NCBI GenBank assembly: GCA_021158405.1
Contig: JAGGUP010000003.1
Location: 1 to 34,937 of the forward strand
Length of the DNA stretch: 34,937 nucleotides
Direction: 5' to 3'
Source of the DNA: Bacteroidales bacterium
GTDB taxonomy: Bacteria > Bacteroidota > Bacteroidia > Bacteroidales > UBA12170
Positions 3 to 28,948 of the stretch are shown piece after piece; the stretch's first letter is position 1; each line of letters begins with the position of its first letter. Both the position numbers and the translations under genes were made by a program. The notes beneath the pieces were generated by a model. The model was given only the letters and a program-made list of their open reading frames with translations, had not been told where the DNA came from and did not search any database.

Positions 3-165
3 GAACTTGTTTAAAGTTAAAGAGTGATTTCGAGAGTAAACCACTGGTGTCCAGTGACGAATCTCATTTTTTATTGCATAGCCTTAGCTACGGAATCAAA
101 AATAGCTGAAGTCAATGGCACCAAGGGCTCGCTCGCAGTTTTGCTGTTTTACTTTAAACAAGTTC
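3..165. repeat. MITE-like non-coding element, copy A
   Basis: The two ends carry a perfect 15-base inverted repeat: GAACTTGTTTAAAGT at 3-17 and its reverse complement at 151-165. About ten further bases inward pair imperfectly. No credible reading frame lies inside. The interior has a core ATAGC..AGCTACGG near 80-96, flanked by A/T runs, and the same core and layout recur in the element at 28789-28948. Size, terminal inverted repeats and lack of coding suggest a small non-autonomous mobile element or a structured intergenic repeat. The window starts at base 1, so the element could extend further left. No target-site duplication is visible. Confidence 0.6.
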
Positions 166-598
166 TATTTCTCCTTTCAGAATTACACCTTTAACCCGTT
201 GTGCAATTAGGCAATGTTAATTTTTAAATTATTTGCTTTTCTATCAAATACGAACTTGTTGATGTATTGAATCATCGTAAGCGAGGTTATTGTATAACTA
301 TGTTGTTTTAACTTCATAAGCACACTAATTGGCTGAAACTATTCCTACAAAACAAACATCATATAAAACTCATTGCTGGTATTTTTTATTTCGATTTTCA
401 TATTTTAATCCGAAACTTTGAATTCTAAACCTTGCGCTTAACTGTTAAAACCGCTCATTTGATAAATAGATATTAACGCTTGGTAATTAACTGCTTCAAA
501 TTTGTATTAATCACACTATCTTTACTTACGAAGTTTTTTTGAAACATTCTTTTAGTCTAAATTTCAGAATTAATGTTGTATTTTTAAAAAATTCGGCC
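166..598. other. Intergenic region, nothing firm
   Basis: AT-rich sequence with no supported gene. The only hint is TATCTTTA at 517-524, one base off the Bacteroidota -7 consensus TAnnTTTG and about 75 bases before the start at 599. No -33 TTG sits at the expected distance, so it is only a weak promoter candidate for the small two-gene cassette downstream. Confidence 0.3.
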
Positions 599-793
599 AT
601 GAAAAAAATATTCGCATTATTAGGGTGGAAATATGTAAAAGATAATACCACCGGGCAATATCACCATTACAAATGTCCAAAACTCAAAGGAATTCATAAT
701 CGAGAATTTTTTAACAAAGTAGGGATGAAAGAAGATATCGCAAGACATCCTTATTCCATTAAAACAGGAAATTGTTTAGACGGAGTTATTTAA
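599..793 (+). CDS. Small hypothetical protein, 64 aa
   Basis: I do not recognise this family. The ATG at 599 is preferred over an in-frame TTG at 539, because the upstream extension looks like untranslated leader and the shorter product begins with a plain MKKIFALLGW. The protein is basic and soluble-looking, with no convincing signal peptide or membrane helix. Aromatic and His/Cys residues cluster in GQYHHYKCPKLKG (residues 19-31), and a second Cys sits near the C-terminus (TGNCLDG). Two Cys and several His could bind a metal, but the spacing matches no motif I know. Its stop lies two bases before the ATG of the next gene, so the two are very likely co-transcribed and perhaps translationally coupled. 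Confidence 0.6.
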   Translation: MKKIFALLGWKYVKDNTTGQYHHYKCPKLKGIHNREFFNKVGMKEDIARHPYSIKTGNCLDGVI

Positions 794-795
794 CT

Positions 796-1008
796 ATGGG
801 GAACTTTAAAATTAAGAATTTCAAAGTTGGGGATATCGTTTATCATTTATTTCACAAAGAGTTCCGTATGATAATTGTGAGACTTAATAATAGCAGAAAT
901 GAACTATTATGTGTTTGGCTAGATGAAGACGGAGAAATGCAATATCTTGAAATGAAACCCTATGATCTTGGCAAAGTGAGCGATCTAAACCAAAATATTT
1001 CAGCCTGA
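796..1008 (+). CDS. DUF2158/YodC-like small protein, 70 aa
   Basis: The N-terminal FKVGDIVY followed by short beta-strand-like segments, a central LLCVWLDEDGEMQ and a closing LEMKPYDLGKV resembles the small DUF2158/YodC family, whose members run FKVGDxV..MTV..VWCxWFDxxGExxxxxFxxxxL. Members are 60-80 aa single-domain proteins, probably an SH3-like barrel, with no established role. The usual Cys in VWC is shifted to CVW here, and the family GGP motif is absent, so this is a distant match. The start is the ATG at 796, two bases after the upstream stop; a TTG at 772 would overlap that gene. No clear terminator follows. Confidence 0.6.
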   Translation: MGNFKIKNFKVGDIVYHLFHKEFRMIIVRLNNSRNELLCVWLDEDGEMQYLEMKPYDLGKVSDLNQNISA

Positions 1009-2702: not shown

Positions 2703-2722
2703 GAATGACTCTTTTAGAACTG

Positions 2723-3165: not shown

Positions 3166-6100
3166 ATGAGAAAAATTATTGTAATGCTCGCTTTGGTAGC
3201 CTTTGTAGGTCTTCAAGGTGTATTTGCACAAACTTCTGTTACAGGTACTGTTAGCAGTTCTGAAGACGGAGGTACTCTTCCCGGAGTATCTGTAGTTGTA
3301 GAAGGCACTAGCCTTGGTACTACTACTGATATGGATGGAAGATTCAGTTTATCAGTTCCTACTGATGCTACTGCTCTTCTTTTTTCATTTGTAGGAATGG
3401 AAGCTCAAAGAGTTGCATTTACTGGACAAACTGTAATTAATGTTGTTTTAAAATCTTCCGCTTTACAATTGGATGAGTTTGTTGTGACAGCTCTTGGTGT
3501 TTCAAGGGAAAAGAAATCCCTAGGTTATGCTGCACAAGAAATTGGCGGTGATGCAATCAATGAAGCAAAAAACAACAACTTAATTAATTCACTATCTGGA
3601 CGTGTATCAGGTGTTGAAGTTAAATCAAGTGGTAACATGGGTGGATCTACTAACATTATAATTAGAGGATCTAAATCTCTTACCGGTAACAATCAGGCTT
3701 TATTCGTAGTTGACGGAGTGCCTATTACCAATTCAACTTTCAATACCGGCTATCAAAAGAGAGGTGGAGCAGGTTTCGATTTTGGTAGTGGTGTTTCCGA
3801 CATTAATCCAAATGACATTAAATCCATTAGTATATTAAAAGGTGCTGCCGCAACTGCATTATACGGTTCTCGCGCTGCAAATGGTGTTATTCTTATTACT
3901 ACCAAAACAGGAAGTGATAACAAAGGATTAGGTGCTAAAGGTATTGGAGTTTCATTTAGCTCTAATGTTACAGCTGGTGTTGTTGACAAAAGCACATTCC
4001 CTACTTATCAAACCGGATATGGTGGAGGTTACGGCCCTTATTATAGTGGTGGAGATCATCCAGGTTTATCAGAAGGTCCTTTACCTTGGACTAATGGAGC
4101 TGATGTTTTATATTTTCCATCAACAGAAGATGCTTCTTATGGTGAAGCATTTGATCCTAATTTGTTGGTTTATCAGTGGGATGCATTCGTTCCAGAATCT
4201 CCAAATTACCAAACAGCTACACCTTGGGTTAATGCTGCCAATGGTCCTATCACATTTTTTGAAACAGCGGTTACAACTTCAAATACACTTGCTGTAGACG
4301 GTTCTTCTGAAAATACTGAATTCCGTTTGTCTTATACTAATTTTGTACAAACAGGTATCTTACCAAACAGTAAATTAGATAAAAATAGTTTTGCATTGTC
4401 AGGAAGCCATAAGGTTTTAGATAATGTAACTGTTAGTTCTTCTGCAAATTTCGTTCACCAAAGTACTGTTGGTCGTAATAACACAGGTTATTCCGACAAT
4501 GTTATGTCTAGTTTCCGTCAGTGGTGGCAGGTGAATACTGATGTTCAAGATCAAAAAGACATCTATGATCTTACCGGGAAAAACTATACATGGAACCCTG
4601 CCGGACCTGAATATGGTAATAATAATCCAATTTATTGGAATAACATTTATTGGGAGCGTTATAATAATGTTCCTGAAGATACACGTGATCACCTTTTTGG
4701 AAATATTCAAGCTAAGTGGGATATTAATGATTATTTAAGCCTTACTGCAAGAGCTTCCTTAGATTATTATTCTCAATTTATAGAAGAATTTAAAGGTTAC
4801 GGTAGCGTTTCTGGTGCTTTTGGTATTGGTTTAGGTGATGTTACTTCCGGTTATGCCAGAACTAATATTAACTTTATGGAAACCAACTATGATGTAATGC
4901 TTAATTTCAAAAAAGAGCTAACTGATAAACTAAGCCTTTCTGCTTTAGTGGGTGGTAATATCAGAAGAAACAGCAGAAACTTTCTTTATGCTTCTACAAA
5001 CGGAGGTTTAATTGTTCCTGATCTTTATTCTATTGCCAACTCTGCAAGTCCTCCTTTGGCTGCTTTGGAATCAGCTCAAAAAATTGGTGTTAATGGTATT
5101 TTCGGAAGTGTTTCTCTAGGTTATAATAGCTTATTTTATTTAGATGCTACATTAAGAAGAGACCAATCTTCTACATTACCTGAGGATGATAATAGTTATT
5201 TATACCCTTCTATTTCAGGTAGTTTTATCTTCTCTAACCTTGTTGATTCCGATTGGATGCAGTTTGGTAAAGTAAGATTAAATTATGCTGAAGTTGGTAA
5301 TGATGCTCCTTTTGCAAGTTTATACGACACCTATAGTCAACCAAGCCCTTTCGGCAATGCTTCATTATTCTCAGTACCGAGTACTAAAAACAATGATGCA
5401 TTGAAATCGGAAAAGACTAAGAGTATGGAAGCTGGTTTAGAAATGACATTCTTGAACAAACGTTTAGGTTTCGATCTTGCTGCTTATAAAACCAATACTA
5501 TTAATCAAATTATGCCTGTTGCAGTTTCTTCTGCTACTGGTTATACAACTAAATATGTTAATGCAGGTGAAGTACAAAACCAAGGTATTGAATTAAATAT
5601 TTTTGGTACTCCTGTTCTAACGAATGACTTCACTTGGAATGTTAACGTTAACTGGGCTGCTAATCGTAATGAAGTTGTTTCTTTGTTCGAAGATGTTAAA
5701 AACCTTCAATTGGGTAGTTTTCAGGGTGGCCTTACTTTAAATGCCAGAGTTGGTGAACCTTACGGAACAATTCAAGGAAAAGATTTTATCTATTTAGATG
5801 GCCAAAAAGTAGTTGGTGATAATGGTTTTTATTTAAGAACAACTACTGTTGATAATGTATTAGGTAATGTTAATCCTGATTGGCATGCCGGTGTTACCAA
5901 TAGTTTCTCTTACAAAAGCTGGACCGCTAGTTTCTTAATTGATATTCAAAAAGGTGGTAGCGTATTTTCTTTAGACCAGTATTATGGTCAAGGTACAGGA
6001 TTGTATGCAAATACTGCCGGTTTAAACGATTTGGGAAACCCTGTTAGAGATGCTGTTGCCGATGGTGGTGGTGTTATATTAGAAGGTGTTACAGAAGATG

Positions 6101-6432
6101 GTCAAGTGAATACAACTCGTGTTTATGCTGACCGTTATAGTGGACCTTATGGTTGGAAAAAGAATCCAAATGCTGAGTTTGTTTATGATGCTTCTTATGT
6201 AAAATTAAGAGAAGCTCAGATTTCATATAATATTCCAAATAGGGTATTACAAAATACTGGAATTAGTTCCCTTTCTGTAGGTTTGGTTGGTACCAATCTT
6301 TGGATTCTTTTTAAGAATCTTCCTGATGCTGATCCTGAAGCAGGCTTGGGTGCCGGTAATGCTCAAGGATGGCAAAGTGGAGTTATGCCAACAACGCGTA
6401 ACATTGGTTTCAATCTTAAAGTTCAATTTTAA
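3166..6432 (+). CDS. SusC/RagA-family TonB-dependent receptor
   Basis: An outer-membrane active transporter of 1088 aa, the usual SusC length. Signal peptide at 1-21 ending FAQ; CarboxypepD_reg-like beta-sandwich at about 24-95 (GVSVVVEGTSLGTTTDMDGRF); plug at about 115-240 containing NGVILITTK; then a 22-strand barrel ending in the aromatic terminus KVQF. The SusC signature LYGSRAANGVILITTK lies near residue 232. The family imports oligosaccharides or peptides through a lipoprotein lid, here the SusD partner starting 12 bases downstream. No glycan-degrading enzyme is nearby, so the substrate is unknown. Frequent T-ending codons (GGT, GCT) hint at high expression. The start is supported by the signal peptide and by a matching ATTTTT..A..TTATGAGAAAA context at the second susC. 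Confidence 0.95.
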   Translation: MRKIIVMLALVAFVGLQGVFAQTSVTGTVSSSEDGGTLPGVSVVVEGTSLGTTTDMDGRFSLSVPTDATALLFSFVGMEAQRVAFTGQTVINVVLKSSALQLDEFVVTALGVSREKKSLGYAAQEIGGDAINEAKNNNLINSLSGRVSGVEVKSSGNMGGSTNIIIRGSKSLTGNNQALFVVDGVPITNSTFNTGYQKRGGAGFDFGSGVSDINPNDIKSISILKGAAATALYGSRAANGVILITTKTGSDNKGLGAKGIGVSFSSNVTAGVVDKSTFPTYQTGYGGGYGPYYSGGDHPGLSEGPLPWTNGADVLYFPSTEDASYGEAFDPNLLVYQWDAFVPESPNYQTATPWVNAANGPITFFETAVTTSNTLAVDGSSENTEFRLSYTNFVQTGILPNSKLDKNSFALSGSHKVLDNVTVSSSANFVHQSTVGRNNTGYSDNVMSSFRQWWQVNTDVQDQKDIYDLTGKNYTWNPAGPEYGNNNPIYWNNIYWERYNNVPEDTRDHLFGNIQAKWDINDYLSLTARASLDYYSQFIEEFKGYGSVSGAFGIGLGDVTSGYARTNINFMETNYDVMLNFKKELTDKLSLSALVGGNIRRNSRNFLYASTNGGLIVPDLYSIANSASPPLAALESAQKIGVNGIFGSVSLGYNSLFYLDATLRRDQSSTLPEDDNSYLYPSISGSFIFSNLVDSDWMQFGKVRLNYAEVGNDAPFASLYDTYSQPSPFGNASLFSVPSTKNNDALKSEKTKSMEAGLEMTFLNKRLGFDLAAYKTNTINQIMPVAVSSATGYTTKYVNAGEVQNQGIELNIFGTPVLTNDFTWNVNVNWAANRNEVVSLFEDVKNLQLGSFQGGLTLNARVGEPYGTIQGKDFIYLDGQKVVGDNGFYLRTTTVDNVLGNVNPDWHAGVTNSFSYKSWTASFLIDIQKGGSVFSLDQYYGQGTGLYANTAGLNDLGNPVRDAVADGGGVILEGVTEDGQVNTTRVYADRYSGPYGWKKNPNAEFVYDASYVKLREAQISYNIPNRVLQNTGISSLSVGLVGTNLWILFKNLPDADPEAGLGAGNAQGWQSGVMPTTRNIGFNLKVQF

Positions 6433-6444
6433 AAATTATTCAAG

Positions 6445-7884
6445 ATGAAAAAAATAATATATATTTTAATTGCCCTAATAGCAGTCTCTTGCTCCAAGGA
6501 TCCCTTGACTGATTTGAACAAGGATGTTAAGAGCCCGACTGAAATCCCAGGAAACACTCTGTTTTCGAATGCGGAAAAAAATCTATCTGATCAGATTGTT
6601 AGTTTAAATGTAAACCATAATGATTTTGACCTTTGGTCACAATATTTAACGGAAACTACCTATACTGACGAAAGTAATTACGAAATCTTTTCAAGAAACG
6701 TTCCTGATAATGCATGGAGAACTTTTTATCGCGATGTATTGCAAGATTTAGATCGTGCTAATGAGTTGCTTAGTGCTGAAACATTTGCTGCTCCTGAAGC
6801 TATCGCTGCTAAAGCAAACAGACTAGCTATTATTGATATTGTTGCTGTTTATACTTGGAATCGTATGGTTACACTTTGGGGAGATATCCCTTATACTGAA
6901 GCTTTGGATATTACTAATGTACTTCCTGTTTATGATGATGGTTTAACAGTTCATAAAGATTTGCTTACTCGCATTAGTGCTGATATCAGTGCTCTTGATG
7001 TTGCAAATGGAAGCTTTGGTGATGCCGATCTTATTTACGGTGGTAATGTTGCTTTATGGAAAGCTTTTGCTAATGGATTAAAAGTAAAGATGGCTGTTCA
7101 GCTTGCAGATATTTCTTCTGAAAGTGCTTTAGTTTCCTCAAGTATTGAAGCTGCTAAAAGCGGAACATTTGCCTCATCTGATGATGATGCTATTTTCCAT
7201 TATTTAGGTGGAACACCTAATACAAATCCTTTGTATGTTGATTTAACACTTAGCGGTCGTCTGGACTTTGTTGCAGCTAACACCTTAATCGATAAGATGA
7301 GTAGCTTAAACGATCCTCGTTTGCCATTATATTTTGAGCAAAATTTAGGTGATGATACCTATTTAGGTGGTGATTACGGAGAGAGCTCAGCTTTTGGTCT
7401 CTACTCTCATATTAATGTTGCCATTTCTCAGGATCCAACTTTTGGAAACGCTTTGATGTCTTATTCTGAGGTTCAGTTTTATTTAGCTGAAGCCGCTGCT
7501 CGTGGTATCACTGGTGATGATGCAGCTGATTTATATGATAATGCAGTAAAAGCTTCTATTGAATCTTGGGGTGGAACATCTGCTGATGCTGCTGCTTATT
7601 TAGCTCAAGCGGATGTTGCTTACGATGCTGCTGCTTGGAAAGAGAAGATTGGAACTCAAGCATGGATTTCTTTCTATCTTCGTGGTTATGAAGGTTGGTC
7701 TACATGGAGGAGGTTAGACGCTCCAGCTATGAATATGCCTCCTACTCCAGCTGACGGAGGATTCCCATATAGATATACTTATCCTAGTGGTGAACAAACA
7801 TTAAATGGAACTAATTACACAGCTGCAGCTTCTGCTATTGGAGGTGATAAGCTAGGTACCAAATTATATTGGGATAAGTTCTAA
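6445..7884 (+). CDS. SusD-like outer membrane lipoprotein (SusD-like_2)
   Basis: A 479-aa surface lipoprotein that pairs with the SusC starting at 3166, 12 bases downstream of its stop. The lipobox is AVSC with Cys16. The helical body has TPR-like segments (YTWNRMVTLWGDIPYTEAL near 131-149; YSEVQFYLAEAAARG near 340) and the Trp-rich C-terminal part SWGG..W..KIGTQAWISFYLRGYEGWSTWRR typical of the SusD/RagB branch PF12771. SusD proteins act as the hinged lid that captures ligand over the SusC barrel. A strong terminator follows at 7911-7940, so the operon is just these two genes. Family is secure; ligand unknown. Confidence 0.93.
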   Translation: MKKIIYILIALIAVSCSKDPLTDLNKDVKSPTEIPGNTLFSNAEKNLSDQIVSLNVNHNDFDLWSQYLTETTYTDESNYEIFSRNVPDNAWRTFYRDVLQDLDRANELLSAETFAAPEAIAAKANRLAIIDIVAVYTWNRMVTLWGDIPYTEALDITNVLPVYDDGLTVHKDLLTRISADISALDVANGSFGDADLIYGGNVALWKAFANGLKVKMAVQLADISSESALVSSSIEAAKSGTFASSDDDAIFHYLGGTPNTNPLYVDLTLSGRLDFVAANTLIDKMSSLNDPRLPLYFEQNLGDDTYLGGDYGESSAFGLYSHINVAISQDPTFGNALMSYSEVQFYLAEAAARGITGDDAADLYDNAVKASIESWGGTSADAAAYLAQADVAYDAAAWKEKIGTQAWISFYLRGYEGWSTWRRLDAPAMNMPPTPADGGFPYRYTYPSGEQTLNGTNYTAAASAIGGDKLGTKLYWDKF

Positions 7885-10028: not shown

Positions 10029-11189
10029 TTAATAGGGCCAAAAGTTTGGTTTAACATTAGTTCCGCTATGAGACGAGCAATCTACACATTGTTCTGATAA
10101 GTAAACCAACAGAAAACCGCCTTTATAATCGCTCATTAAAAAGCCTGGATATTTTTCTCTTCCAATATCTCGTAAACCGCCATGTTCGATTACTTCCGGT
10201 AAGCAACCTGGAAATGGATTCGTTGGCATAGCATCAATAAATATACGTTGCTCACTAATAGCTGAGGCACTAAAAAAACCAAGTACTTCTTTTTCGGGAT
10301 GCGTTAAATTCTTTATATTTCCTTGTGTATCTACGGGTTGCTTGTTATAAAGTGATGCGTTTTGATTGTTGTTTAAACGCACGCTTTCCCAGTAAATAAA
10401 TGCTTTTCTTGATAAACCCACCTGACGAACAAGCAAACTATAACCATAAGTAAGATAATCTCTGTTTAAGGGCACAAAATGAAGGCTAAAGTTATGAAAT
10501 TTATTTGCTGAAAGATTTTCAGTAGAGAGGGTCATTATTTCTGGTACTCGAGCTGTAGTCCAGCAAGTCATTAAAGACGAATCAGGAGGATAAATATGAT
10601 GAATAACTCCATCATAATACCACTCGCGGGGATAAGAGGCGTGATGCTCATAAGTTGAAACCAACTCAATTAAATAATAATTACTGCTTGTTTCGTCTCC
10701 TTCAATATCTAAAAAAAACTGTAAGCCCCTTGTATAGTATTTATAAGCTCCATTGTATATGCTGTCGATCTTGTATTGAGGAGGTTTAATTTCTCCAACT
10801 TTCGTCATTATTTCCGGCTCAGATTGAAGTTCGTCTCCATCCGGAGTTAATATATGAATATGATATGCAGTGCCTACTTTTATGTTTTCTTTATCGATAT
10901 GGAACATATAGATGCCTGGAGAAGATTGTGATTCGAAGGCTTTATATTCGTTGCCATTTTCATCCCAGATGCTGACTTCGCATCCCGTTAGTTTTTCGAA
11001 AATATTTTCATTTAAAGGGATTGATTTGCTAAGGGTAATAGATTGCCAATACTCATCCGTGTTGGTTAATTTCCCGGAAACTACAATTTTTGAACTGGTT
11101 TCAGTATCAATTTTAGGTGTGTAGGGTTTAATACACGCTGATAAAAATCCTAACGCTAATATAAATACTATGATTTTATTTCGAAGCAT
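10029..11189 (-). CDS. DUF4249 domain lipoprotein
   Basis: A 386-aa lipoprotein with lipobox LSAC (Cys19 from this start). The start is the ATG at 11189; an in-frame TTG at 11198 would only add three residues. The body matches the Bacteroidota DUF4249 family: an N-terminal VVSGKLTNTDEYWQSITLSKSIP strand pair, then VSIWDENGNEY..SPGIYMF and GTAYHIHILTPDGDELQSEPE. The C-terminal region is Cys-rich near the end (GCLPE, EQCVDCSSH), which suggests disulfides or an interaction patch. DUF4249 genes are typically found beside STN-type TonB receptors, as here, and are thought to be SusD-like surface partners, though this is not proven. The gene overlaps the receptor's 3' end by 14 bases, so translation is probably coupled. 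Confidence 0.88.
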   Translation of the reverse strand: MLRNKIIVFILALGFLSACIKPYTPKIDTETSSKIVVSGKLTNTDEYWQSITLSKSIPLNENIFEKLTGCEVSIWDENGNEYKAFESQSSPGIYMFHIDKENIKVGTAYHIHILTPDGDELQSEPEIMTKVGEIKPPQYKIDSIYNGAYKYYTRGLQFFLDIEGDETSSNYYLIELVSTYEHHASYPREWYYDGVIHHIYPPDSSLMTCWTTARVPEIMTLSTENLSANKFHNFSLHFVPLNRDYLTYGYSLLVRQVGLSRKAFIYWESVRLNNNQNASLYNKQPVDTQGNIKNLTHPEKEVLGFFSASAISEQRIFIDAMPTNPFPGCLPEVIEHGGLRDIGREKYPGFLMSDYKGGFLLVYLSEQCVDCSSHSGTNVKPNFWPY

Positions 11190-13947
11190 AATTCCCAAGT
11201 TTAAATAACCAAGTAGCCGTAAATAATGGTACCCCTATAATTGAATATTGATAACTCATCAAATACCCATTCGCCTGATCGAAAAATACCGAATAAGGGT
11301 TTTCCCGACCGGTTAAATTGTATACACTAAATAAAAATGAGCTATGTATGAATTTATTCTTCCTTAAATTTCCTTCAATTTTCATCGAAATATCGGCTCT
11401 AAAATAATGAGGTATTCGGTATTTATTGCGACTCGAATAGTCGATAAAGTCCAGTTCCTCAATTGTATAATTGGCAATTGGATAGGTAACAGGTTTTCCA
11501 CTTTGATAAGTAATAGTTGATGATACACTAATCCGTTTTCTTATTTTGTAATTGATCATCGCATTTATTACATGCGGAATATCAAAGCTTGCCGGGTATA
11601 ATTTCCCTTGATTAATTTGTTCCCAGCTATTCTCATTGGCAATCTTTACAAAAGCACGTGAAAATGTATAGGCAAACCATCCGTTTAATTTATGCCCGCT
11701 GCGTTTTATTAAAAATTCAAAGCCATAAGCATTCTGGTCACCTTGAAGTACGGATTGTTCTACATTTGGATTGTCGATAAATTCTGCCCCATCTCTAAAT
11801 TCGGTATAATTATGCGTTTTCTTGTAAAACATTTCAAAAGACGTTTCCCAGTCTCCATAGGGTATTGTTCTAAAAATACCAGCAGAAATTTGCTGACTCT
11901 CTGCCGGTTTTAAATAATAATCAGCCAATTTCCATTGTGTATTTGGGGCTATGGCGATGGTGTTATTTAGCATAAAAATATTTTGATGCGTTCGGTTATA
12001 GGAAACTTTTAAACTTCCGTTTTTATCCGTTTCAAAATTAATTGCTGCCCGAATATCGGGAGAAAAATACCATTTTATAATTTCGCCCTTCTTAAATTGT
12101 ATAGAATCTTGAATATAGCGATCTTCTTTTGGATAGTCTTCAAAATAAGTATAAACCGTTTTTGCACCGAAAGCACCGAAAGCACCAAATCGAAATCCGA
12201 TATTAGTGCTTAATCGAGGCGTAATGTGATAATTGTCAGTTATATAAACGGCACCTTCAATAGATTGCTCTGTTCCTAATTCGGTTTTTACTTTAAGTGA
12301 TTCAATACCATAAGGATTCACAGTCCCTCTATCTAAACTATAAACAATTGCAGTTGCGCCATATAGTAAATTGTGTTTATCGTTTAAGCGTTGTTCAAAT
12401 TCAATTCTGGTTTCAAAATCAGCTATTTGATAATTATGCTCATAAGAAGTCGTCTCTTGTTGTGTGTCGAGTGTGCTGAAGCCATATAAAGAGCCAACCG
12501 CAGAAATATTAAGCCTTTTGTAATCAGAGAAATTATGGCCGTAGTTCACAGAAGCTCCTTTATTGTAATAGCTGTAAGTATTTAAATCCGCGAGTTGGAA
12601 ATAATCATTGCTATAATATCCAAATAAAGTCAACTGAGTCTTTTGAGTGTCGTAGTTTACAGAAGCTGTATAATCGGCAAATTTTGATGAGCTGGCGTTT
12701 ATTGTTGGATCATCAATCTTAGCTAAAATCCAGTCGGAGTAGCTTCTTCGACCACTTAGTATGAAAGAGGCTGTCTCTTTTTTGATTGGACCTTCAAGTA
12801 TTAAATTGGCAGATATTGGGCTTATTCCGCCATGCAAAGTGTAATTTTTTTTATTACCTTCACGTGTTTTAATATCAAAAACAGAAGATAATCTTCCTCC
12901 ATATGAAGCAGGAATATAGCCCTTATAAATCGAAAAATCATTAATGATCTCTGAATTAAAAGCTGGAAAAAACCCAAATAAATGAGAAGTATTATAAATG
13001 GGGATATTGTTGATATAGAAAGCATTCTGGTCAGCATTTCCACCGCGTACATTTACTCCTGATGAACCTTCGCCAACGCTCACAATTCCCGGAAGCATTT
13101 CCGACACTTTTAAAATGTCTTGTTCCCCCATCATCATAGGAATTTCGCGTATGGTTTTAACTGCAATTTTTTCTAAGCCTGGATCTTTTACGCGTATATT
13201 CATCTGTTTGTCACCATAAACTACTACTTCGTCCATTTCGAAATTGGCCTGATTCATTTCCACATTAAACGATCCTGAGGAATAGATGTTTAGATGATAT
13301 CTTTTTTCTTCCATACCAAGAAAATTGAAACGAGCCGTGTATTTTCCAGGCCGAATATTCAGTGAAAAACGACCCTGATTATCAGCAGCTGTACCACTCT
13401 TAGTCTCTTCGATATATAAAGTTGCCCCAGGGATGGTTTCGCCACTTATGGCTTTATGGATATTCCCTGAAATTTCAACAGCTCGTGTACCCGAACTTTG
13501 CTCTTGTTTGCCTAGGGTAATCACTTGCAGGTCAGCCATACGTCCTTTTAAATAAGCTGATTTTTCAATTTGTTTTGTGAGGGAAGCATCCGCTTGTTGA
13601 AGACCTGCTTCTTTTATAATTTGATAGGGGGGGAGTTTTGTAATGAGCTGTTCAGAAGAAAGCAATATAAGATTCCCTTCCCATTCAGAAACGGTTAGTT
13701 TTGAACCAAAAAGAGCTTTTTTAACAGCCTCTAAAGGTGAAATACTATCATTGTGAAGAGTAACAATTATATCTTTCACCCAGCTTTCCTGATAATAGAT
13801 TTTTAAATTTGCTTTTTCTTCAATTAGCTTTGCGAAAGCTGAAAAAGGAAGCTTATCCGCATGAACTTTAATGGGTTCCTTCGAATCGGGACTGATCAAA
13901 AATAAAGGCAGCCATAACAACTGAAAATATAAAATTATAGTTTTCAT
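11176..13947 (-). CDS. TonB-dependent receptor with N-terminal STN domain
   Basis: A 923-aa outer-membrane receptor. A signal peptide is followed by a secretin/TonB N-terminal (STN) domain at about 25-100 (IKVHADKLPFSAFAKLIEEK..SISPLEAVKKALFGSKLTVS), a CarboxypepD_reg domain at about 160-235, a plug at about 255-360 (GVNVRGGNADQNAFYINNIPIYNTSHLFGFFPAFNS) and a barrel to the C-terminus (LFKLGNYASK). STN domains let FecA-type receptors signal to FecR-type anti-sigma factors, but no FecR or ECF sigma gene is in the window. The ATG overlaps the stop of the upstream gene in an ATGA arrangement, and the DUF4249 gene starts within the 3' end. Substrate unknown; a transport and possibly sensing role is likely. 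Confidence 0.93.
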   Translation of the reverse strand: MKTIILYFQLLWLPLFLISPDSKEPIKVHADKLPFSAFAKLIEEKANLKIYYQESWVKDIIVTLHNDSISPLEAVKKALFGSKLTVSEWEGNLILLSSEQLITKLPPYQIIKEAGLQQADASLTKQIEKSAYLKGRMADLQVITLGKQEQSSGTRAVEISGNIHKAISGETIPGATLYIEETKSGTAADNQGRFSLNIRPGKYTARFNFLGMEEKRYHLNIYSSGSFNVEMNQANFEMDEVVVYGDKQMNIRVKDPGLEKIAVKTIREIPMMMGEQDILKVSEMLPGIVSVGEGSSGVNVRGGNADQNAFYINNIPIYNTSHLFGFFPAFNSEIINDFSIYKGYIPASYGGRLSSVFDIKTREGNKKNYTLHGGISPISANLILEGPIKKETASFILSGRRSYSDWILAKIDDPTINASSSKFADYTASVNYDTQKTQLTLFGYYSNDYFQLADLNTYSYYNKGASVNYGHNFSDYKRLNISAVGSLYGFSTLDTQQETTSYEHNYQIADFETRIEFEQRLNDKHNLLYGATAIVYSLDRGTVNPYGIESLKVKTELGTEQSIEGAVYITDNYHITPRLSTNIGFRFGAFGAFGAKTVYTYFEDYPKEDRYIQDSIQFKKGEIIKWYFSPDIRAAINFETDKNGSLKVSYNRTHQNIFMLNNTIAIAPNTQWKLADYYLKPAESQQISAGIFRTIPYGDWETSFEMFYKKTHNYTEFRDGAEFIDNPNVEQSVLQGDQNAYGFEFLIKRSGHKLNGWFAYTFSRAFVKIANENSWEQINQGKLYPASFDIPHVINAMINYKIRKRISVSSTITYQSGKPVTYPIANYTIEELDFIDYSSRNKYRIPHYFRADISMKIEGNLRKNKFIHSSFLFSVYNLTGRENPYSVFFDQANGYLMSYQYSIIGVPLFTATWLFKLGNYASK

Positions 13948-14639: not shown

Positions 14640-14660
14640 ATTGATTTTTTTGTGTTTTTG

Positions 14661-14668
14661 CAAAGGTA
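14661..14668 (-). promoter_or_regulatory. -7 box of the STN-receptor operon
   Basis: The minus strand reads TACCTTTG, a full match to TAnnTTTG. It lies 21 bases before the ATG at 14639 and overlaps the alternative TTG start, which helps exclude that start. A -33 TTG is not evident. Confidence 0.5.
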
Positions 14669-15088: not shown

Positions 15089-15096
15089 TATCTTTG
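15089..15096 (+). promoter_or_regulatory. -7 box candidate of the second susCD operon
   Basis: TATCTTTG fully matches TAnnTTTG, 132 bases upstream of the preferred ATG, implying a leader of about 125 bases. No -33 TTG is at the standard distance. The hairpin at 15099-15134 begins right after the box. Confidence 0.45.
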
Positions 15097-15098
15097 AC

Positions 15099-15134
15099 TG
15101 TTCGTTTATGATACAGATTGTACATTATCGAACA
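15099..15134 (+). promoter_or_regulatory. Near-perfect palindrome at the susC transcription start
   Basis: TGTTCG (15099-15104) pairs with CGAACA (15129-15134). Inside, ATG pairs with CAT and TACA (15112-15115) with TGTA (15119-15122) around a 3-base loop; two mismatches and one bulge interrupt the stem. It starts 3 bases after the -7 box, so it would cover the start site as an operator or form the very 5' end of the mRNA. Confidence 0.4.
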
Positions 15135-15228
15135 TTTAAGAATAAAACAGGCTGGCTAAATCCTTTTTAATCAGTACTTTTATTATATGGGAAATTTTAA
15201 TTTTATTACTAATCAAATTTTTGAAATT

Positions 15229-18200
15229 ATGAGAAAATTTTCAATTTGGCTTGTCGGTCTATTGCTTTTTGCAAGTACCGGCTTTGCTAATGCACAAACA
15301 AAGTCAATTTCGGGTACTGTTACTAGTGCCGACGATGGTTTGACCTTGCCAGGTGTGGCCGTGATAGTTAAAGGAACAACTATCGGAACGACTACCAATA
15401 TGGAAGGTCAGTACCAAATCGATGTGCCTACAAGTGCAACTACTTTAGTGTTTTCTTTTATTGGCCTTAAAGATAGTGAGGTTCAAATAGGAGAACAAAC
15501 TATTATTGACGTTGTTATGAGTTCGGATATGTTTAATCTGGACGAAATAATTGTTGCCGGTGTTGCCTCTGGTACACAACGTAAAAAACTTACTGTTTCC
15601 GTAGGAAAAGTAAGTGCAGACGATCTTCTTGAAGTTCCAGCTACTAATGCTGCCGGTGCTCTTCAAGGTAAAATGGCGGGTGTTCAGGTAACTACCAATA
15701 CAGGTACTCCTGGTCAATCAGCTACTATCCTTATTCGTGGTGCTACTTCTATTTCCGGAAGTCAAGAGCCTCTTTACATTGTAGATGGTGCTATAATTGA
15801 AGGTGGTTTATCTGATTTAAATGTGGATGACATCGAGTCTATCGAAGTAGTAAAAGGAGCTTCCGCTTCTGCTCTTTATGGTTCTCGTGCCGGTAGTGGT
15901 GTTATTGTTGTTACAACTAAAAGAGGTGCTAATTTAAGCGAAGGACAAACAAAAATTACAATTCGTAATGAGTTTGGTTCTAACCAAATGCCAAAACTCC
16001 TTCCTTTAGCTGAGCATCATAGCTATGATTTAAAAGATAATCCTAGTTCGGTTTATACAGATTATGCAGGTGTTACTTTTCCAGCAGATTATACTGGTGG
16101 TACAGATCCTGATATTGCCGGTAACCGTGTTTTATCTTTAGATCATTATGCTGATAATCCTTATGCATTTGTAAATGATAATCAAGATGCAATTTTCAGA
16201 AACGGTAATTTCTATACAAATTATGCTTCTGTAGCTAATAAATCAGGAAAAACCAATTTCATGATATCTTTTGAGAACTCTCAAGAAGAAGGTGTGTTGG
16301 AATATACTGATGGTTATAATCGTAAGAATTTCCGCGTAAACGTTGATCATTATATTGGTGAAAAATTTAAAATTTCCGCCAGTCAATTAATTGGAAAAAG
16401 CTTTACTCAAGCTCCAGGTGGAATTAATGATAACGGAGGTATTTTCTTCGATGTATTATTCCTATTACCTGATATTGATTTAACACGCCCCAACGAAGAG
16501 AATGGCGATCCTTTTGATGTTAATGTTAGTAACTGGAATAGCAATGAGGATAACCCATTGTATGCTTTAACTAAACTTCAACGCAAAGAAGACAAAACCT
16601 ATATGATTGGTACTTATGGTGCTGAATGGTTTGCTTCTGATTGGTTAACTGTTGATGCAAAATATGCTTTCGATAGAAGAAATAGAGATTATACTTCTTG
16701 GACACCTAAAGGAATGCTACAACGTGGAGGAACTTTACTTGTTGAAGACTTAGGTTCTTTATATAAATTTGGTAGTGCAACTTTTTCTCAAACTGCACAG
16801 GTTACGGCTCATTTAAATAAGCAATTTGGCGATTTGACAACTAAAGCTAAATTCAGCTATTTGTTTGAAGATATGAGTTATATGAGTACTGGTGCCACTG
16901 GATATGATTTCTCTGTTGAGAATATTCCTTCTTTTGACGCTATCGTGGGTGCTAAGTCAATTACCTCTTATAATGAACAGGTTACTGCAGAAAACGTTTT
17001 TGGTATTTTTCAATTCGATTTAAAAGGAAAATATTTAGCTGATGTTATGGTTCGTTACGATGGTTCTTCACTTTTTGGAGAAAACGAAAGATGGAAGCCT
17101 TATTACAGGGTTTCTGCTGCTTACCGTATTAGCGAAGACTTTACAATTCCAGGTTTTCAGGAATTGAAAGTACGTGCTGCTTATGGTACATCAGGACAAC
17201 GTCCTGGTTTTGCTGCTCAGTATGAGACCTATGGATTTTCAAATGGATTACCTTCTCCAAGTACATTAGGTAATAAAAACTTAAAGCCATCAAACTCTGC
17301 TGAATTAGAAATTGGTCTAAACGCAGAATTCTTAAACCGCTTTAGTCTTGAATTTGTGTATGCAAATACAAATACTACTGATCAGATTTTACAAGCTCCA
17401 TTACCTGCTTATTATGGTTATCAATACCAATGGCAAAATGCAGGAGCACTTGAAAGTACTGTATTTGAAGCAACTTTAGGAGCTAGCATAATCAAGAAAA
17501 AAGATTTCTCTTGGACTGCAAACTTGGTTTTTGACCGTATTCGTCAAACCGTTACTGAATTGAATATTCCAGCTTTCCAAACCGGACCTGTTGGTCAGGA
17601 TGCGGATCAGGCTTTCTATATTCGTCAAGGCGAAACTTTTGGTATTATTTATGGTACTCAATGGTTAACTAGTCTTGATGACTTGGCTCTTCAATTAAGT
17701 GATGGAGATGCTGTCACTAATTATGAAATCAATAGCGATGGTTATGTTATTCCTAAAGGTACTCAAGGTACTGTAAATGAAAAACCAGTTAAATTGTTAG
17801 ACGAAAATGGTGTAACAGCTAAAACCGTTATTGGTAATACCAATCCTGATTTCCGTTTAGGTTTGAGCAATACCCTTAAATACAAAAATATTAGCTTGTA
17901 TTTCTTGTTAGATTTCAAAAATGGTGGCGATGTTTACAATCGTACTGCACAATGGTTATATCGTGACCTTCGTCACATTGATGTTGACCAATTTGGCAAG
18001 CCTGAAAATGAAAAGAAAGCAACTAATTATTTCTCTACCCTTTATGATGTTAACGATATCAACTCTCACTTCGTAGAAGATGCTACTTATTTGAAATTAA
18101 GAGAACTTTCGTTATACTATACTTTAGGTGAAAAGCAATTGAGTGGATTTGCTAATGGATTTTTCAAATCAGTTAAACTTGGTTTGATCGGACGTAACTT

Positions 18201-18348
18201 ATTGACTGTTACAAACTATACAGGATATGATCCTGAAGTTGGTCAAATTAACAATGGTTATGCAGGTTCAAGTCAATATTTCCAATTCGATGCTTATGGC
18301 TATCCAGCATACAGAACAGTTAGTGGATCATTAACATTAGTATTTTAA
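15229..18348 (+). CDS. SusC/RagA-family TonB-dependent receptor, second copy
   Basis: A 1039-aa outer-membrane transporter. The start at 15229 gives a standard signal peptide (MRKFSIWLVGLLLFASTGFA, then NAQ); an ATG at 15187 would add 14 residues ahead of it. CarboxypepD_reg at about 25-95 (GVAVIVKGTTIGTTTNMEGQY), plug at about 110-230, SusC signature LYGSRAGSGVIVVTTK near 217-232, barrel to the terminal SGSLTLVF. The first 100 residues resemble the receptor at 3166 closely; the barrels differ, implying different ligands. Its SusD partner follows after 38 bases. No hydrolase or regulator gene is adjacent, so the substrate cannot be named. Confidence 0.95.
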   Translation: MRKFSIWLVGLLLFASTGFANAQTKSISGTVTSADDGLTLPGVAVIVKGTTIGTTTNMEGQYQIDVPTSATTLVFSFIGLKDSEVQIGEQTIIDVVMSSDMFNLDEIIVAGVASGTQRKKLTVSVGKVSADDLLEVPATNAAGALQGKMAGVQVTTNTGTPGQSATILIRGATSISGSQEPLYIVDGAIIEGGLSDLNVDDIESIEVVKGASASALYGSRAGSGVIVVTTKRGANLSEGQTKITIRNEFGSNQMPKLLPLAEHHSYDLKDNPSSVYTDYAGVTFPADYTGGTDPDIAGNRVLSLDHYADNPYAFVNDNQDAIFRNGNFYTNYASVANKSGKTNFMISFENSQEEGVLEYTDGYNRKNFRVNVDHYIGEKFKISASQLIGKSFTQAPGGINDNGGIFFDVLFLLPDIDLTRPNEENGDPFDVNVSNWNSNEDNPLYALTKLQRKEDKTYMIGTYGAEWFASDWLTVDAKYAFDRRNRDYTSWTPKGMLQRGGTLLVEDLGSLYKFGSATFSQTAQVTAHLNKQFGDLTTKAKFSYLFEDMSYMSTGATGYDFSVENIPSFDAIVGAKSITSYNEQVTAENVFGIFQFDLKGKYLADVMVRYDGSSLFGENERWKPYYRVSAAYRISEDFTIPGFQELKVRAAYGTSGQRPGFAAQYETYGFSNGLPSPSTLGNKNLKPSNSAELEIGLNAEFLNRFSLEFVYANTNTTDQILQAPLPAYYGYQYQWQNAGALESTVFEATLGASIIKKKDFSWTANLVFDRIRQTVTELNIPAFQTGPVGQDADQAFYIRQGETFGIIYGTQWLTSLDDLALQLSDGDAVTNYEINSDGYVIPKGTQGTVNEKPVKLLDENGVTAKTVIGNTNPDFRLGLSNTLKYKNISLYFLLDFKNGGDVYNRTAQWLYRDLRHIDVDQFGKPENEKKATNYFSTLYDVNDINSHFVEDATYLKLRELSLYYTLGEKQLSGFANGFFKSVKLGLIGRNLLTVTNYTGYDPEVGQINNGYAGSSQYFQFDAYGYPAYRTVSGSLTLVF

Positions 18349-18386
18349 TGGGAATAATGAATTATAATTTTAAAAAATTACGAAAT

Positions 18387-19928
18387 ATGAAAAATAAAAA
18401 TTTAATATACGCTTTTGTAATTAGCTTTTTGTTTGTGTTTTCGGGTTGCCAGAAGTTAGATGTAGAAAACTTAAACAATCCGGACTCAGCAACAGTTTTA
18501 GCTAATCCAAATGATCTTGCCGGTTTGGCCGGTGGTATTATGAATGGCTGGTTTCAGCAATCTCAAGAATATGATGGTTTGGGACTTGCTCTTTGGGTAG
18601 GTGCCGATGTCGGTACATGCTCTTGGGGTAACTCCGGTATGCGCGATTTCTCTAATGAGCCTCGTAATGCCTGGAACAACGATGGTGCTTATTCATACGC
18701 TAATATTACTCGCAGTCATTATTTAGGAATGAATAGTACGCTGTCTTTGTCTAATCAAATTCTTAATCAAATTGTCAATAATGGCGCTGAATTGAAAACT
18801 CCTGCTGAAACAGCAGCTGTGGAAGCAATGGCTCGTTTGGGACAAGGTTTAGGAATGGGATATATAGCTTTGGTTTTCGATAAAGGGTTTATCGTTGACG
18901 AAACTATTAATTTAGAAAGTGATGAGATTCCTGCTGTTCCTTATAACGAACTTAGTGCTGCTGCGATAGCTAAGATAGATCAAGCTATTGCTCTTTGCTC
19001 TACTTCATTCACTTTACCTGCTGCTTGGATTCCAGGTATGACTTGGACCAATGTGGAATTGGGTAAATTAGCAAATTCTTTTGCTGCTCGATTACTGATT
19101 AATACAAGCCGTACTGCTGCTGAAAACTCTGCTGTTGATTGGGCAAGAGTTAAAGCTTATGCCGAAAAAGGCATCGATTTTGATTTTGCTCCTTTAGCTG
19201 ACGATATTAACTGGTATTCACTTTATCAAACGTATTCAGTATATGGTGGATGGGGTCAGGTTGATATGCGTGTGATTCATATGATGGATCCTAATATGCC
19301 TGACTATTTCCCAGAAAGCTTGTCTTTCGACGATTTGCCAAATCAAGGTCTTGCAACTTCTGATGATGCTCGTTTATTAACAGATTTTGAATATAAGTCT
19401 TCTTGTCCATTCAGGGCAAATAGAGGCTCTTATCATTTCTCTAGCTATCGATATGCTCGTCTTGATGATTATTTAGCTACTTGGACTACTCCTATGCCTG
19501 AAATGCGTAAAGCAGAAAACGATTTGATGTTAGCTGAAGCTAAATTGATGTTAGGTGATGCAGCTGGAGCTGCAGCAATAGTAAATGCAGGTACTCGCGT
19601 AACCCGAGGTGGTTTAGCTCCTGTAGATGCTGCTGGTGTTGGTGCCGCAATTAAATACGAAAGAACCATCGAGTTAACCTTAACAGGATTTGGTCTTGAG
19701 TTTTTTGATATGCGTCGTGCTGATATGCTTCAAAAAGGAACTCCACTGCATTTCCCTATTCCACAACAACAATTGGATGTTATGCAAATGGAAAACTACA
19801 CTTTTGGTGGAGTAGCTAATGCTGATGGAGTAAATGCTTCAAATGGCGGTTGGAATAGCAAGAAAAGTGCTCGCGCCTATTCTAATTCTCCTTCGGTTTT
19901 AGGTGATGATTTGCCTTTAATCAAGTAG
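18387..19928 (+). CDS. SusD/RagB-family outer membrane lipoprotein
   Basis: A 513-aa lipoprotein partner of the SusC at 15229. The ATG at 18387 is chosen because it places a normal signal and lipobox at the N-terminus (FSGC, Cys21). An in-frame ATG at 18348, overlapping the susC stop by one base, would add 13 residues and is less likely. SusD features include the early NLNNPDSATVLANPNDLAGLAGG segment, which matches the usual N-terminal NNPN.. region, TPR-like helices, and LMLAEAKLMLGDAAGAAAIVN near residues 379-400 followed by RTIELTLTGFGLEFFDMRR, the typical C-terminal ligand-lid region. It should sit on the cell surface over the receptor. Ligand unknown. Confidence 0.92.
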   Translation: MKNKNLIYAFVISFLFVFSGCQKLDVENLNNPDSATVLANPNDLAGLAGGIMNGWFQQSQEYDGLGLALWVGADVGTCSWGNSGMRDFSNEPRNAWNNDGAYSYANITRSHYLGMNSTLSLSNQILNQIVNNGAELKTPAETAAVEAMARLGQGLGMGYIALVFDKGFIVDETINLESDEIPAVPYNELSAAAIAKIDQAIALCSTSFTLPAAWIPGMTWTNVELGKLANSFAARLLINTSRTAAENSAVDWARVKAYAEKGIDFDFAPLADDINWYSLYQTYSVYGGWGQVDMRVIHMMDPNMPDYFPESLSFDDLPNQGLATSDDARLLTDFEYKSSCPFRANRGSYHFSSYRYARLDDYLATWTTPMPEMRKAENDLMLAEAKLMLGDAAGAAAIVNAGTRVTRGGLAPVDAAGVGAAIKYERTIELTLTGFGLEFFDMRRADMLQKGTPLHFPIPQQQLDVMQMENYTFGGVANADGVNASNGGWNSKKSARAYSNSPSVLGDDLPLIK

Positions 19929-24356: not shown

Positions 24357-24442
24357 TTGAATATAGAATTGATTTTATCAATTGCCCTGATTCAAAAAAA
24401 AGCCGTAAATTTAGATCTGTAAACCGACGATGAAAGAATAAC

Positions 24443-26901: not shown

Positions 26902-27213
26902 TGTTTTTTTAACGAAAATAGAAATTTCTGGTGGTTTTCTTTTTGCAAGTAGTTTTTTATTTGAAATAAAAACCCATACAATCCATCTTCACAGGGCAAA
27001 TCCGGCATAATTTAAGATAATTGTATTACCTTTAAATAATCAAGAATTCGCAGTTATACAATTATAATTCCAAATGACTGATAAATAAATAGAATTGTTT
27101 TTTCTTTTTTGAATCACACTTTTTTTTAATAGCCTTTTTATGGAAATTTTTTTTGATGAGAAAAAAGGAGAAAAGGAACTGTTTATATCGGTTATTTGGG
27201 ATTGTTGTTGGTA
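26902..27213. other. Intergenic region, nothing firm
   Basis: About 310 AT-rich bases between two minus-strand genes. TATTTTCG on the minus strand (26915-26922) is one base off the -7 consensus and could serve metX. No terminator-grade hairpin for the ATP-grasp gene and no RNA gene were seen. Confidence 0.35.
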
Positions 27214-28380
27214 TTAGATAACAAACTCTGTCAAATCAGACTGCAAAATAGCTGCAAGTTCCTCAAAATTCTCTTCTCTTGTTTCGGTAAAAACAAAACC
27301 AAAAAGAGGATATTCATGATAATCTAGAGCACGTAATTCCAAGGGCTTTTCAAATTTCTTGAGTAGTTTTTGGTAATCAAAAGACTTGATTTCTTCTGCT
27401 TTTAATCCCGTTGAATTGTCTAAAACAATCAAACCAAACAATTTTCCTGCTTTATCTTTTAAAATGGTTTTCCAATCGGGTTTGTGGTTTTGAAAGAAAG
27501 CGGCATAGGGATTAAAACCCCAGGCATACGGCGTTAGATCAGCTGTGGTGCAAAATCCGCCAAAGCGTAAAGGATTTACTTCAATAGGAACTAAATTTCC
27601 TTTATCGTCCATGCGAACTTCCACATGCAAGGGGAAATTTCGTAATTCCACCAGATCACCTAAAGCAATTAAGAAATCAGTAAATGGCGATAGAAAGGTT
27701 TCCATTATTGACTTTGAAGTTATGTAAACGCGATCGCTTACATCATCTACAGTAGCAAATTCGTGCTTTAAAATATTTAAAATTGTCGGATTACCATTCT
27801 CATCATAATAAGCATCAAAAGCAAATTCCACACCCTGAATATAACCTTCAATAATAAGTTCCGTGCTGTCTAATACTTCGGAGGGGAAAAAAAGTGCTGC
27901 CTCTTTTAATTCACCTTTGAGCTTCTCTTTTATTCTTGGCCATTCTTCATTGTTTTGAACCGAATAAACAGCCAAACTAAAAAAGCCCACCGCTGGTTTT
28001 ATAACGAAAGGTTTGGGTAATTCTTCCACCTTTAGACTATCCAAATCCTCAGGTTTTAGAGAAAGATAAAACACATCGGGAAATAGTTTCTCTGTCAGTT
28101 TGCGAAAAGCAAATTTATTTTTAAACTGGTTGATTGTTTTCGGCAAATCGGTATTTGGTAAATGCTTCATTATCCATTCTATAGCATTTTCCGAATTGGT
28201 ATAAATGCGTGCATTAGGAGTAGTTTTGAAATAGCGAATGGCTTCTTCATCAGAAAATAAGCTTGTCTTTGAATCCAGTTTTAAATGCTTGCTGTACTCA
28301 TTGGCTAAAACAGGGAATTGATAGTCTGTCGCTGTATTTTTTAAATAGTCAGAGACATAGGGTTTGTCGAGTATAATCAT
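27214..28380 (-). CDS. ATP-grasp domain protein, ligase-like
   Basis: A 388-aa cytoplasmic protein of the ATP-grasp fold. The mid part has the lysine-containing strand PKPFVIKPAVGFFSLAVY (about 122-139, ATP contact), a LIIEGYIQGVEFAFDAYYDENG segment (about 174-195, adenine-side strands) and HVEVRMDDKGNLVPIEVNPLRFGG (about 252-275) with the E-x-N metal-binding pair. ATP-grasp enzymes join a carboxylate, through an acyl-phosphate, to an amine, thiol or similar group; the substrate cannot be inferred. The first 100 residues resemble a pre-ATP-grasp domain (FRKLTEKLFPDVFYL follows). There is no neighbouring biosynthetic cluster. It is monocistronic. Confidence 0.8.
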   Translation of the reverse strand: MIILDKPYVSDYLKNTATDYQFPVLANEYSKHLKLDSKTSLFSDEEAIRYFKTTPNARIYTNSENAIEWIMKHLPNTDLPKTINQFKNKFAFRKLTEKLFPDVFYLSLKPEDLDSLKVEELPKPFVIKPAVGFFSLAVYSVQNNEEWPRIKEKLKGELKEAALFFPSEVLDSTELIIEGYIQGVEFAFDAYYDENGNPTILNILKHEFATVDDVSDRVYITSKSIMETFLSPFTDFLIALGDLVELRNFPLHVEVRMDDKGNLVPIEVNPLRFGGFCTTADLTPYAWGFNPYAAFFQNHKPDWKTILKDKAGKLFGLIVLDNSTGLKAEEIKSFDYQKLLKKFEKPLELRALDYHEYPLFGFVFTETREENFEELAAILQSDLTEFVI

Positions 28381-28788
28381 TGCTAATCAACAGTTTTATT
28401 TCGCTTGCAAAAGAACGAAATTTACGGGAAAGCTTTTTACTAATAAAAAGAATTCCGATTAATCGGTATAGATTTCTGTATCAGGATGAAATTTCAACCA
28501 CGAAATTAGGATTTCGCTAGTAAGAAAACCCAGAGGGTTTTCAGGAATTTAGGTTTATTTTTTTCAATACTCCATTAATAAAGAGCGTAAATTCGTGCAT
28601 TCGTGGCAAAATAATCACACAAATAAAAGTACGAGTTTGCCCTGTTTGAGTGTAGCCAAAGATAGGAATTTAGGTTTATTTTTTTTAGAAAGCTTTGCAT
28701 CTGTGAAACAGCTATTACATGAAAGATGCATAAAGAATACTTTTATTGGTTAAATATCGAAAACCACAATATTAAATTTGATATACTA
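28381..28788. other. Intergenic region with decayed repeats
   Basis: No gene. CCACGAA (28498-28504) and TTCGTGG (28600-28606) are an inverted pair about 100 bases apart. A 22-base direct repeat (AGGAATTTAGGTTTATTTTT and two more T) lies at 28543-28564 and 28664-28685. These resemble the CACGAA-type stretch near 20975-21134. Confidence 0.4.
28543..28685. repeat. Pair of 22-base direct repeats
   Basis: The sequence starting AGGAATTTAGGTTTATTTTT occurs at 28543-28564 and at 28664-28685, identical over 22 bases and 121 bases apart. The intervening DNA is AT-rich and non-coding. It may mark a small duplication or insertion. Confidence 0.55.
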
Positions 28789-28948
28789 AGGGCTTGTTAC
28801 GAAATAAGTTCTCTGAATCAGGCGAAGTTATTTTGTTCGGTAACAAGGCAAAAAACGCAGGTATAGCAGAGCTACGGCGAGGCTTTTTAACAAAGTTAGT
28901 GGACAAAAGAACGAGCATAAACGGAGTAGTTATTTCGCAACAAGCCCT
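28789..28948. repeat. MITE-like non-coding element, copy B
   Basis: AGGGCTTGTTACGAAATA (28789-28806) and its reverse complement (28931-28948) match at 17 of 18 positions; weaker pairing continues several bases inward and outward. The interior has no reading frame but carries GTATAGCAGAGCTACGGC (from about 28860), matching the ATAGC..AGCTACGG core of the element at 3-165, with A-runs before and T/A-runs after in the same order. A solo right end is seen at 1440-1463. Length and layout agree with copy A, so these are one family. Confidence 0.65.

Follow-up and report, generated by a model that had tools for sequence, protein, structure and literature searches.

The window analysed here is the 34,937-nucleotide contig 150 (JAGGUP010000003.1) of a Bacteroidales bacterium draft genome (GCA_021158405.1; 2.94 Mb in 187 contigs; the host genome below). 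It carries two short repeats, A and B, which a first-pass annotation had taken for one family. In the strict sense they are not, since their ends, target sites and most of their bodies differ, but they have the same hairpin at their centres and are two lineages of something larger. Both are non-autonomous miniature inverted-repeat transposable elements (MITEs). We consider it probable that they belong to one Bacteroidota-wide superfamily of ~160-bp palindromic elements that is defined by its centre, is moved by IS5-family transposases, and has switched its ends while keeping the hairpin.

Two MITE families in the host genome

Repeat A is a complete copy of 163 bp at 3-165 (plus strand). Its terminal inverted repeats (TIRs), GAACTTGTTTAAAGT at 3-17 on the plus strand and its counterpart at 151-165 on the minus strand, match at 15/15 positions, in agreement with the perfect 15-base repeat first seen there. 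The target duplication TAT follows at 166-168, and its left copy is cut by the contig start, leaving AT alone at 1-2. Repeat B is a complete copy of 158 bp at 28790-28947 (plus strand), flanked by TAA at 28787-28789 and 28948-28950. Its left TIR, GGGCTTGTTACGAAATAA (28790-28807, plus strand; the B-type end pattern is written as GGGCTTGTTRCGAAATAA), matches the right TIR (28930-28947, minus strand) at 17/18 positions, the value given at first; the earlier boundaries of 28789-28948 had to be corrected because they took in one target-duplication base per side. As had been noticed, CTTGTT is common to the termini of both repeats, and ATAGC..AGCTACGG lies at the centre of both.

The two repeats are imperfect palindromes over their whole length with the shared motif in the middle, and their full-length folds gave z-scores of -6.05 (A) and -6.23 (B) against shuffles. 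The hairpin core occupies 76-93 in A (GCATAGCCTTAGCTACGG, plus strand) and 28861-28877 in B (GTATAGCAGAGCTACGG, plus strand; family consensus GCATAGCAGAGCTACGG). The structured central region of A, 66 bases at 52-117 (plus strand), scored 68 bits with covariance model R1, in which A itself was included. The 64-66-base centres alone folded unremarkably: the z-scores of the two strands were -1.29 and -1.92 in A and 0.94 and -0.74 in B. Since folding energy does not single out the centres, the evidence for the hairpin comes from comparison.

A BLAST search of the host genome found further copies. Family B gave 16 matches over 156-158 of 158 bases (the copy itself counted; the other 15 at 92-97% identity), and family A gave 11 full matches (93-100%, itself counted) plus 2 cut at contig ends, 13 in all, which is not a chance result. 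An exact 3-base target duplication was present in 25 of the 26 copies with both flanks readable. For A, the duplications were exact in 10/10 (GAT, AAT, TAT, AAA, ACT, ATT, and ATA). For B, TAA or TTA stood on both sides in 15/16, often inside CTWAG, and the 16th had TTA/TCA; in two B copies the end was set by eye two bases past the BLAST match. The target sites thus differ, being NNN for A and TWA for B. Short length, TIRs, 3-bp target duplications, many near-identical copies, and the lack of coding capacity, together with IS5-family insertion sequences (ISs) that match the A-type ends, bear out the MITE-like nature first proposed. Contigs begin or stop in or beside elements at positions 1-2 of the window, on contigs 31 and 95 of the host genome, and on contigs 22, 130, and 231 of G010, a genome of the same genus; the repeats therefore split draft assemblies, and copy counts are lower bounds.

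The elements had been described as having no reading frame. Frames of 56 amino acids (24-194) and 57 amino acids (28794-28967) do cross A and B, respectively, and are the longest to do so. However, the frame is open in just 6/11 A copies and 10/16 B copies, and the ratios of non-synonymous to synonymous changes among copies of equal length were 10:9 (A) and 33:17 (B). The original statement thus holds only loosely, but nothing here points to coding.

The core in MITEs with different ends

We searched 11 genomes of the genus for ATAGCN{1,5}GCTACGG. The host genome gave 24 matches, G003 gave 16, and G010 gave 3. The matches in G003 lie mostly within elements of quite different ends (TACCAT/TACCAA, with TWA duplications), and further core elements were found on contigs 101 and 167 of the host genome. 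G002 had 3 matches (control, 1), of which the one on its contig C81 is an element by the covariance model. G004, G008, and G009 had 3, 2, and 1 matches against 5, 2, and 1 in their controls, and the four other genomes had none.

Among 395 genomes drawn evenly across the phylum, the host included, GCATAGCCNTAGCTACGG occurred in four, with copy numbers of 11, 45, 3, and 1; no match to the reversed control was listed. A 20-base form of the core was present in at least 109 stretches among 84,980 species genomes, where by our own arithmetic ~2 matches are expected by chance; 80 loci were taken, all of which we assign by title to Bacteroidota or which are titled 'Chlorobiota'. The free base of GCATAGCCNTAGCTACGG was G in 36, A in 25, T in 19, and C in none of the 80 distinct sites (L294-L373), many of which are copies within a genome. 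Read on the reverse strand, the variable base would lie in loops of the form C(UANG)G, of which several types are UNCG-like. Around 81 core-selected sites, a script found a TIR pair at 67, with the element midpoint within 3.5 bases of the core midpoint at 61 and an exact 3-base duplication at 33; the script favours matching duplications, and some sites were lost to contig ends. Many Bacteroidota thus have palindromic MITEs of ~160 bp with CATAGC-N3..6-GCTACG close to their midpoint, and at least 10 kinds of ends can be distinguished among them by eye.

The covariance model, limited to 150 scored candidates in each genome, found the centre in 21/32 genomes, 17 of the 32 having been chosen for holding the core. 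It gave 30 matches in G000, 20 in G003, 15 in G010, 2 in G002, and 0 in the other seven genomes of the genus, and none in the control genomes G031, G200, G037, and G089. A viral scan with a 14-base core form returned at least 120 stretches. Their spacers were of every length and their surroundings mostly unrelated, and we read them as mostly chance.

Some loci depart from the usual layout. At L370:4754-4814, in a Bacteroidales metagenome-assembled genome, the core hairpin has a short A/T stem and no TIR pair was found around it; it may be a free-standing core. L262, L287, L337, and L373 have extra, partly palindromic sequence on one side of the core, which suggests that the centre is a hotspot of insertion or tip exchange.

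Core-blind scans and covariation of the stem

To find elements irrespective of the core, 1.2 Mb of the complete genome G113 was scanned for pairs of 16-base TIRs that agree at 13 or more positions, are separated by 135-190 bp, and are flanked by a 3-base duplication. There were 26 candidates. The eight most palindromic (arm score at least 9.5) all had CATAGC-N-GCTACG in the central 50 bases, and the other 18 (score at most 2.5) were without the core. In that 1.2 Mb, the motif occurs 11 times, in these eight elements and in three found by the covariance model alone, and its loops vary (ATC, AGG, and CTTAGA). When G113 was block-shuffled, 13 candidates remained, and their arm scores reached at most 4.5. 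The same kind of scan over 763 kb of the host genome, on contigs mostly picked for holding copies, gave 28 candidates, 14 with the motif; at an arm score of at least 4, 11/17 rows had it.

For covariation, 42 representatives, one of them B, were chosen from 46 loci, leaving out two G010 copies with another tip and the near-duplicates L336 and L365. They align nearly gapless over 66 columns. RNAalifold found the hairpin unaided, with compensatory change in 9/14 predicted pairs. When a two-helix structure was specified, 81.1% of cells were paired versus 61.5% in shuffles, double-change cells numbered 204 versus 82.8, and the covariation score was 0.452 versus 0.156; slid controls fell below these values. 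It is the flanking stem that provides the support, its runs of A-T and T-A changing sides in concert. The core columns are near-invariant because the set was selected by core, and are themselves uninformative. These margins are to be read with the caution that related sequences can exceed shuffles. Many copies with a kept core and covarying stems were present in related genomes, the outcome that had been named as support for a mobile or RNA family. Given the core-blind control and the covarying stems, the first-pass idea of diverging ends around a preserved core applies far outside the host genome as well.

IS5-family insertion sequences with matching ends

A viral-metagenome contig (L101) contains a complete 879-bp IS that has ends of the A type, is flanked by an ATT duplication, and encodes a 290-amino-acid transposase. 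The left TIR of A is identical to one of its ends; over 20 bases, A ends agree with the IS at 18-19 positions at one end and 14-16 at the other. The transposase matches NF033580 (NCBIfam IS5) at 137.9 bits versus a cut-off of 110, and PF13340, PF13359, and PF01609 are over cut-off. Contig 35 of the host genome has a decayed IS remnant with an end similar to the A type. In Labilibacter, an 896-bp IS5 element (L406) has GAAGTTGTTTAAAGT ends, as in Saccharicrinis MITEs, and in G113 IS5 elements and MITEs co-occur with near-identical ends (GAACTCATCTTGACTTTTT; GAAGTGrTTTAAACTTTTT). The ends and 3-bp duplications of IS5-family ISs thus match those of GAA-type MITEs. The partner ISs are 879-928 bp long with a transposase, and their nearest IS-named relative among the plasmid matches listed is ISBf6, at 47-48% identity.

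In six IS-MITE pairs, the first 20 bases agree at 14-19 positions and the next 25 at 4-10, where ~6 is chance; the subterminal sequence that an internal-deletion derivative would have in common with its IS was absent from all six. The covariance model detected no core hairpin in the ISs L101, L405, L406, and L415, unlike in the MITEs. With only the ends in common and the tested ISs lacking the core, the MITEs concerned do not qualify as simple deletion remnants.

IS5-family transposases most likely move A and B in trans. What probably defines the superfamily is CATAGC-N3..6-GCTACG within a stem that covaries and is mostly A/T, and not the ends. Its lineages have probably acquired ends like those of various IS5-type elements, which differ in target preference, and have retained the hairpin. 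End classes other than the GAA type would likewise have IS5 partners. An IS5 protein search of the viral contigs returned just the one locus already known, and a search for CTAG-type TIRs there returned 22 stretches. Plasmids had no match to A; B was matched once, weakly and in part, by a sequence from Martelella (E 0.4).

Several observations weigh against this interpretation. The 20-base species-genome set was picked by core sequence, and only the scans of G113 and of the host genome were blind to it. In the latter, 6 of the 17 rows with an arm score of at least 4 lacked the motif; four of them are three point-mutated copies of A or B (one in two registers), and one is a TACCAATT element (L530) whose centre we read as a decayed core. 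The sixth row, a 142-bp palindromic candidate on contig 76 of the host genome (L544:16254; arm score 8.0, TTT duplication), has no core and is unrelated by eye to A or B. In the covariation analysis, pairs with change on both sides numbered 18 versus 16.7 in shuffles, and 99/500 shuffles were as high. In G010, the A-type copies at the end of L106 and the start of L107 have another hairpin tip between GCAT and AC(C/G)G, as if exchanged, with pairing kept, so the exact core is not obligatory.

PF13340 was found in 4/23 genomes searched, in 3 of them over cut-off; in many genomes, then, the enzyme is absent, lost, or of another subgroup. A TIR search of the host genome, the genus, and the viral contigs gave no paired ends for a partner of B, and a search of the viral contigs found no TWA-type TIRs. 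Seven viral loci have one B-like end: L096, L098, and L099 were scanned for a second end, the match falls inside long open reading frames (ORFs) in L093 and L095, and at most 281 bases around the end were read in L094 and L097. Because these searches found no partner for B- and TWA-type ends, extending IS5 to all classes rests there on the type of target site, IS5/Harbinger elements having a TWA preference.

Role of the core and alternative explanations

We infer that the core is functional, as the first-pass annotation had suggested. In A copies, 6/234 core positions and 34/1811 of the rest had changed, and in B copies 8/271 and 64/2254. The core of inserted copies thus decays as fast as the rest, so any selection acts on source elements and not on residents. 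Being conserved between lineages but not among residents, the hairpin would matter for the spread of source copies and not for the host. It may act in the element's own spread as a single-stranded DNA fold, a cruciform, or RNA, and we lean to DNA. A possible reading, to which we give somewhat less than an even chance, is that of a selfish hairpin cassette that has repeatedly swapped its TIRs, and hence its transposase and target, with a hairpin that is needed for spread and that acts in DNA or RNA in a way undescribed for MITEs of DDE transposons.

The same decay counts would also be expected of a core without function. These may be ordinary MITEs with a functionless core that is common by ancestry alone; it would be lost more slowly than any other part because transposition does not need the middle of a palindrome. 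We regard this as unlikely, although it is the alternative that survives best. The residents show no protection of the core, G010 tolerates replacement of the tip, and bodies are homologous across some end classes: in a comparison of interiors that left out L338, 8.3% of 421 cross-class pairs had z>4 versus 0.5% of reversed controls, the strongest pair being TACCAAT (L312) versus CTAGTGT (L276) at z 11.1, and some classes have related ends (GAACTCrTCTTGA and GAAnTnrTTTAAAC). On the other hand, the outer arms look unrelated by eye, yet CATAGC..GCTACG persists with the same A.C mismatch over varied loop lengths, and stem columns outside the core covary.

Slightly less probable still is a structured RNA, in which the MITE transcript would form a long hairpin, undergo binding or processing at its tip, and so regulate or stabilise mRNA. 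The strong full-length fold, the covariation, and the variation between tri- and tetraloops on a constant stem are all consistent with it. G.U pairs in the stems are twice as common on the plus strand (42 versus 21; by rows 21 versus 6, p 0.006, the rows not being independent), but the inner stem has no strand bias (10 versus 8) and the wobble of the core itself favours the opposite strand. The two strands pair about equally, at 81.1% and, for the reverse strand, 78.9%. No Rfam family scored over its gathering score in the window or in 14 of the 80 core-bearing loci, and the neutral decay of residents is unlike that of a host-selected RNA.

Gene orientation was assessed at the 52 of 81 core-selected sites with 700 bases on both sides and at 25 copies in the host genome. 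The context is mostly intergenic, with no clear orientation bias. The 52 sites comprise 11 convergent, 11 divergent, 16 tandem along the plus strand, 13 tandem along the minus strand, and 1 inside an ORF. The 25 host copies comprise 5 convergent, 8 divergent, 6 tandem along the plus strand, none along the minus strand, 4 in ORFs (three of ~93-102 amino acids and one of ~299 starting within the element), and 2 unassigned. The host tandem cases, 6/6 in one direction, would suit a transcript, whereas the 16 and 13 tandem cases elsewhere would not.

A further and improbable alternative is convergence, in which several MITE lineages would each have captured the core as a duplex DNA site recognised by a host factor or recombinase. 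Most cross-class pairs are without detectable homology and nevertheless hold the same motif, and conservation is sequence-specific down to the mismatch, in a set that was selected by the core. Against such convergence, the half-sites are spaced by 3-6 bases, which a rigid duplex site would probably tolerate poorly, and the detectable body homology joins several end classes. A chance or low-complexity likeness of two unrelated AT-rich repeats, suggested by the short motif that is all the two copies have in common by eye and by the unremarkable folding of their centres, is irreconcilable with the copy numbers and with the core-blind scan, with the wide distribution and covariation of the core also against it, and can be dismissed.

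Relation to known elements

MITEs are usually seen as deletion remnants, classed by their ends, with an irrelevant interior. Here, the interior is the part conserved across the phylum and the ends are exchangeable. REP/BIME, Correia, ERIC, and BOX repeats are, like the present elements, dispersed intergenic palindromes. A length of ~160 bp, TIRs, and 3-bp duplications separate the elements from REP/RAYT palindromes, which do not combine TIRs with target duplications. REPs are 20-40 bp long (PMC3733652).

As described in PMC9769881, the MITE of the Cardinium endosymbiont, also of Bacteroidota, is likewise short and multi-copy, and its inverted repeats resemble those of a resident IS; unlike in that account, only ~20 terminal bases are common with the IS here, and a hairpin core joins elements of unrelated ends. 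MITEs are typically AT-rich and intergenic according to passages of a review (PMC10969869), which also present Coxiella QMITE2 as a MITE with a stable predicted stem-loop transcript. Those QMITE2 passages describe no core common to MITEs with different ends, unlike here. Among the matches listed in open-licence PubMed Central literature, there was no description of this core, which leaves its novelty in print unproven.

If the proposed scheme is true, it offers a handle on how small non-autonomous elements outlast their parent IS, by swapping ends and retaining the core. It would also provide a compact hairpin of 16-20 bases whose role is open to mutational testing, and the covariance model from the alignment can find such elements.

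Other features of the window

A solo right end of B had been proposed at 1440-1463. The match there, 1439-1456 on the minus strand, is 15/18 only and at chance level: the host genome has 4 sites at exactly 3 mismatches versus 3 control sites at 3 or fewer. Neither BLAST nor the covariance model found an element at this position, and the proposal is unsupported. A solo B right end does occur, besides the 16 copies, on contig 161 of the host genome, where an IS66 transposase fragment reads straight into it (L086:2437-2796), as an insertion scar or a fusion.

The stretches 3166-7884 and 11176-19928 of the window hold outer-membrane transport genes that are ordinary for Bacteroidota, namely those for a TonB-receptor plug protein beside a SusD-like lipoprotein, a further TonB-dependent receptor, and a SusD/RagB protein.

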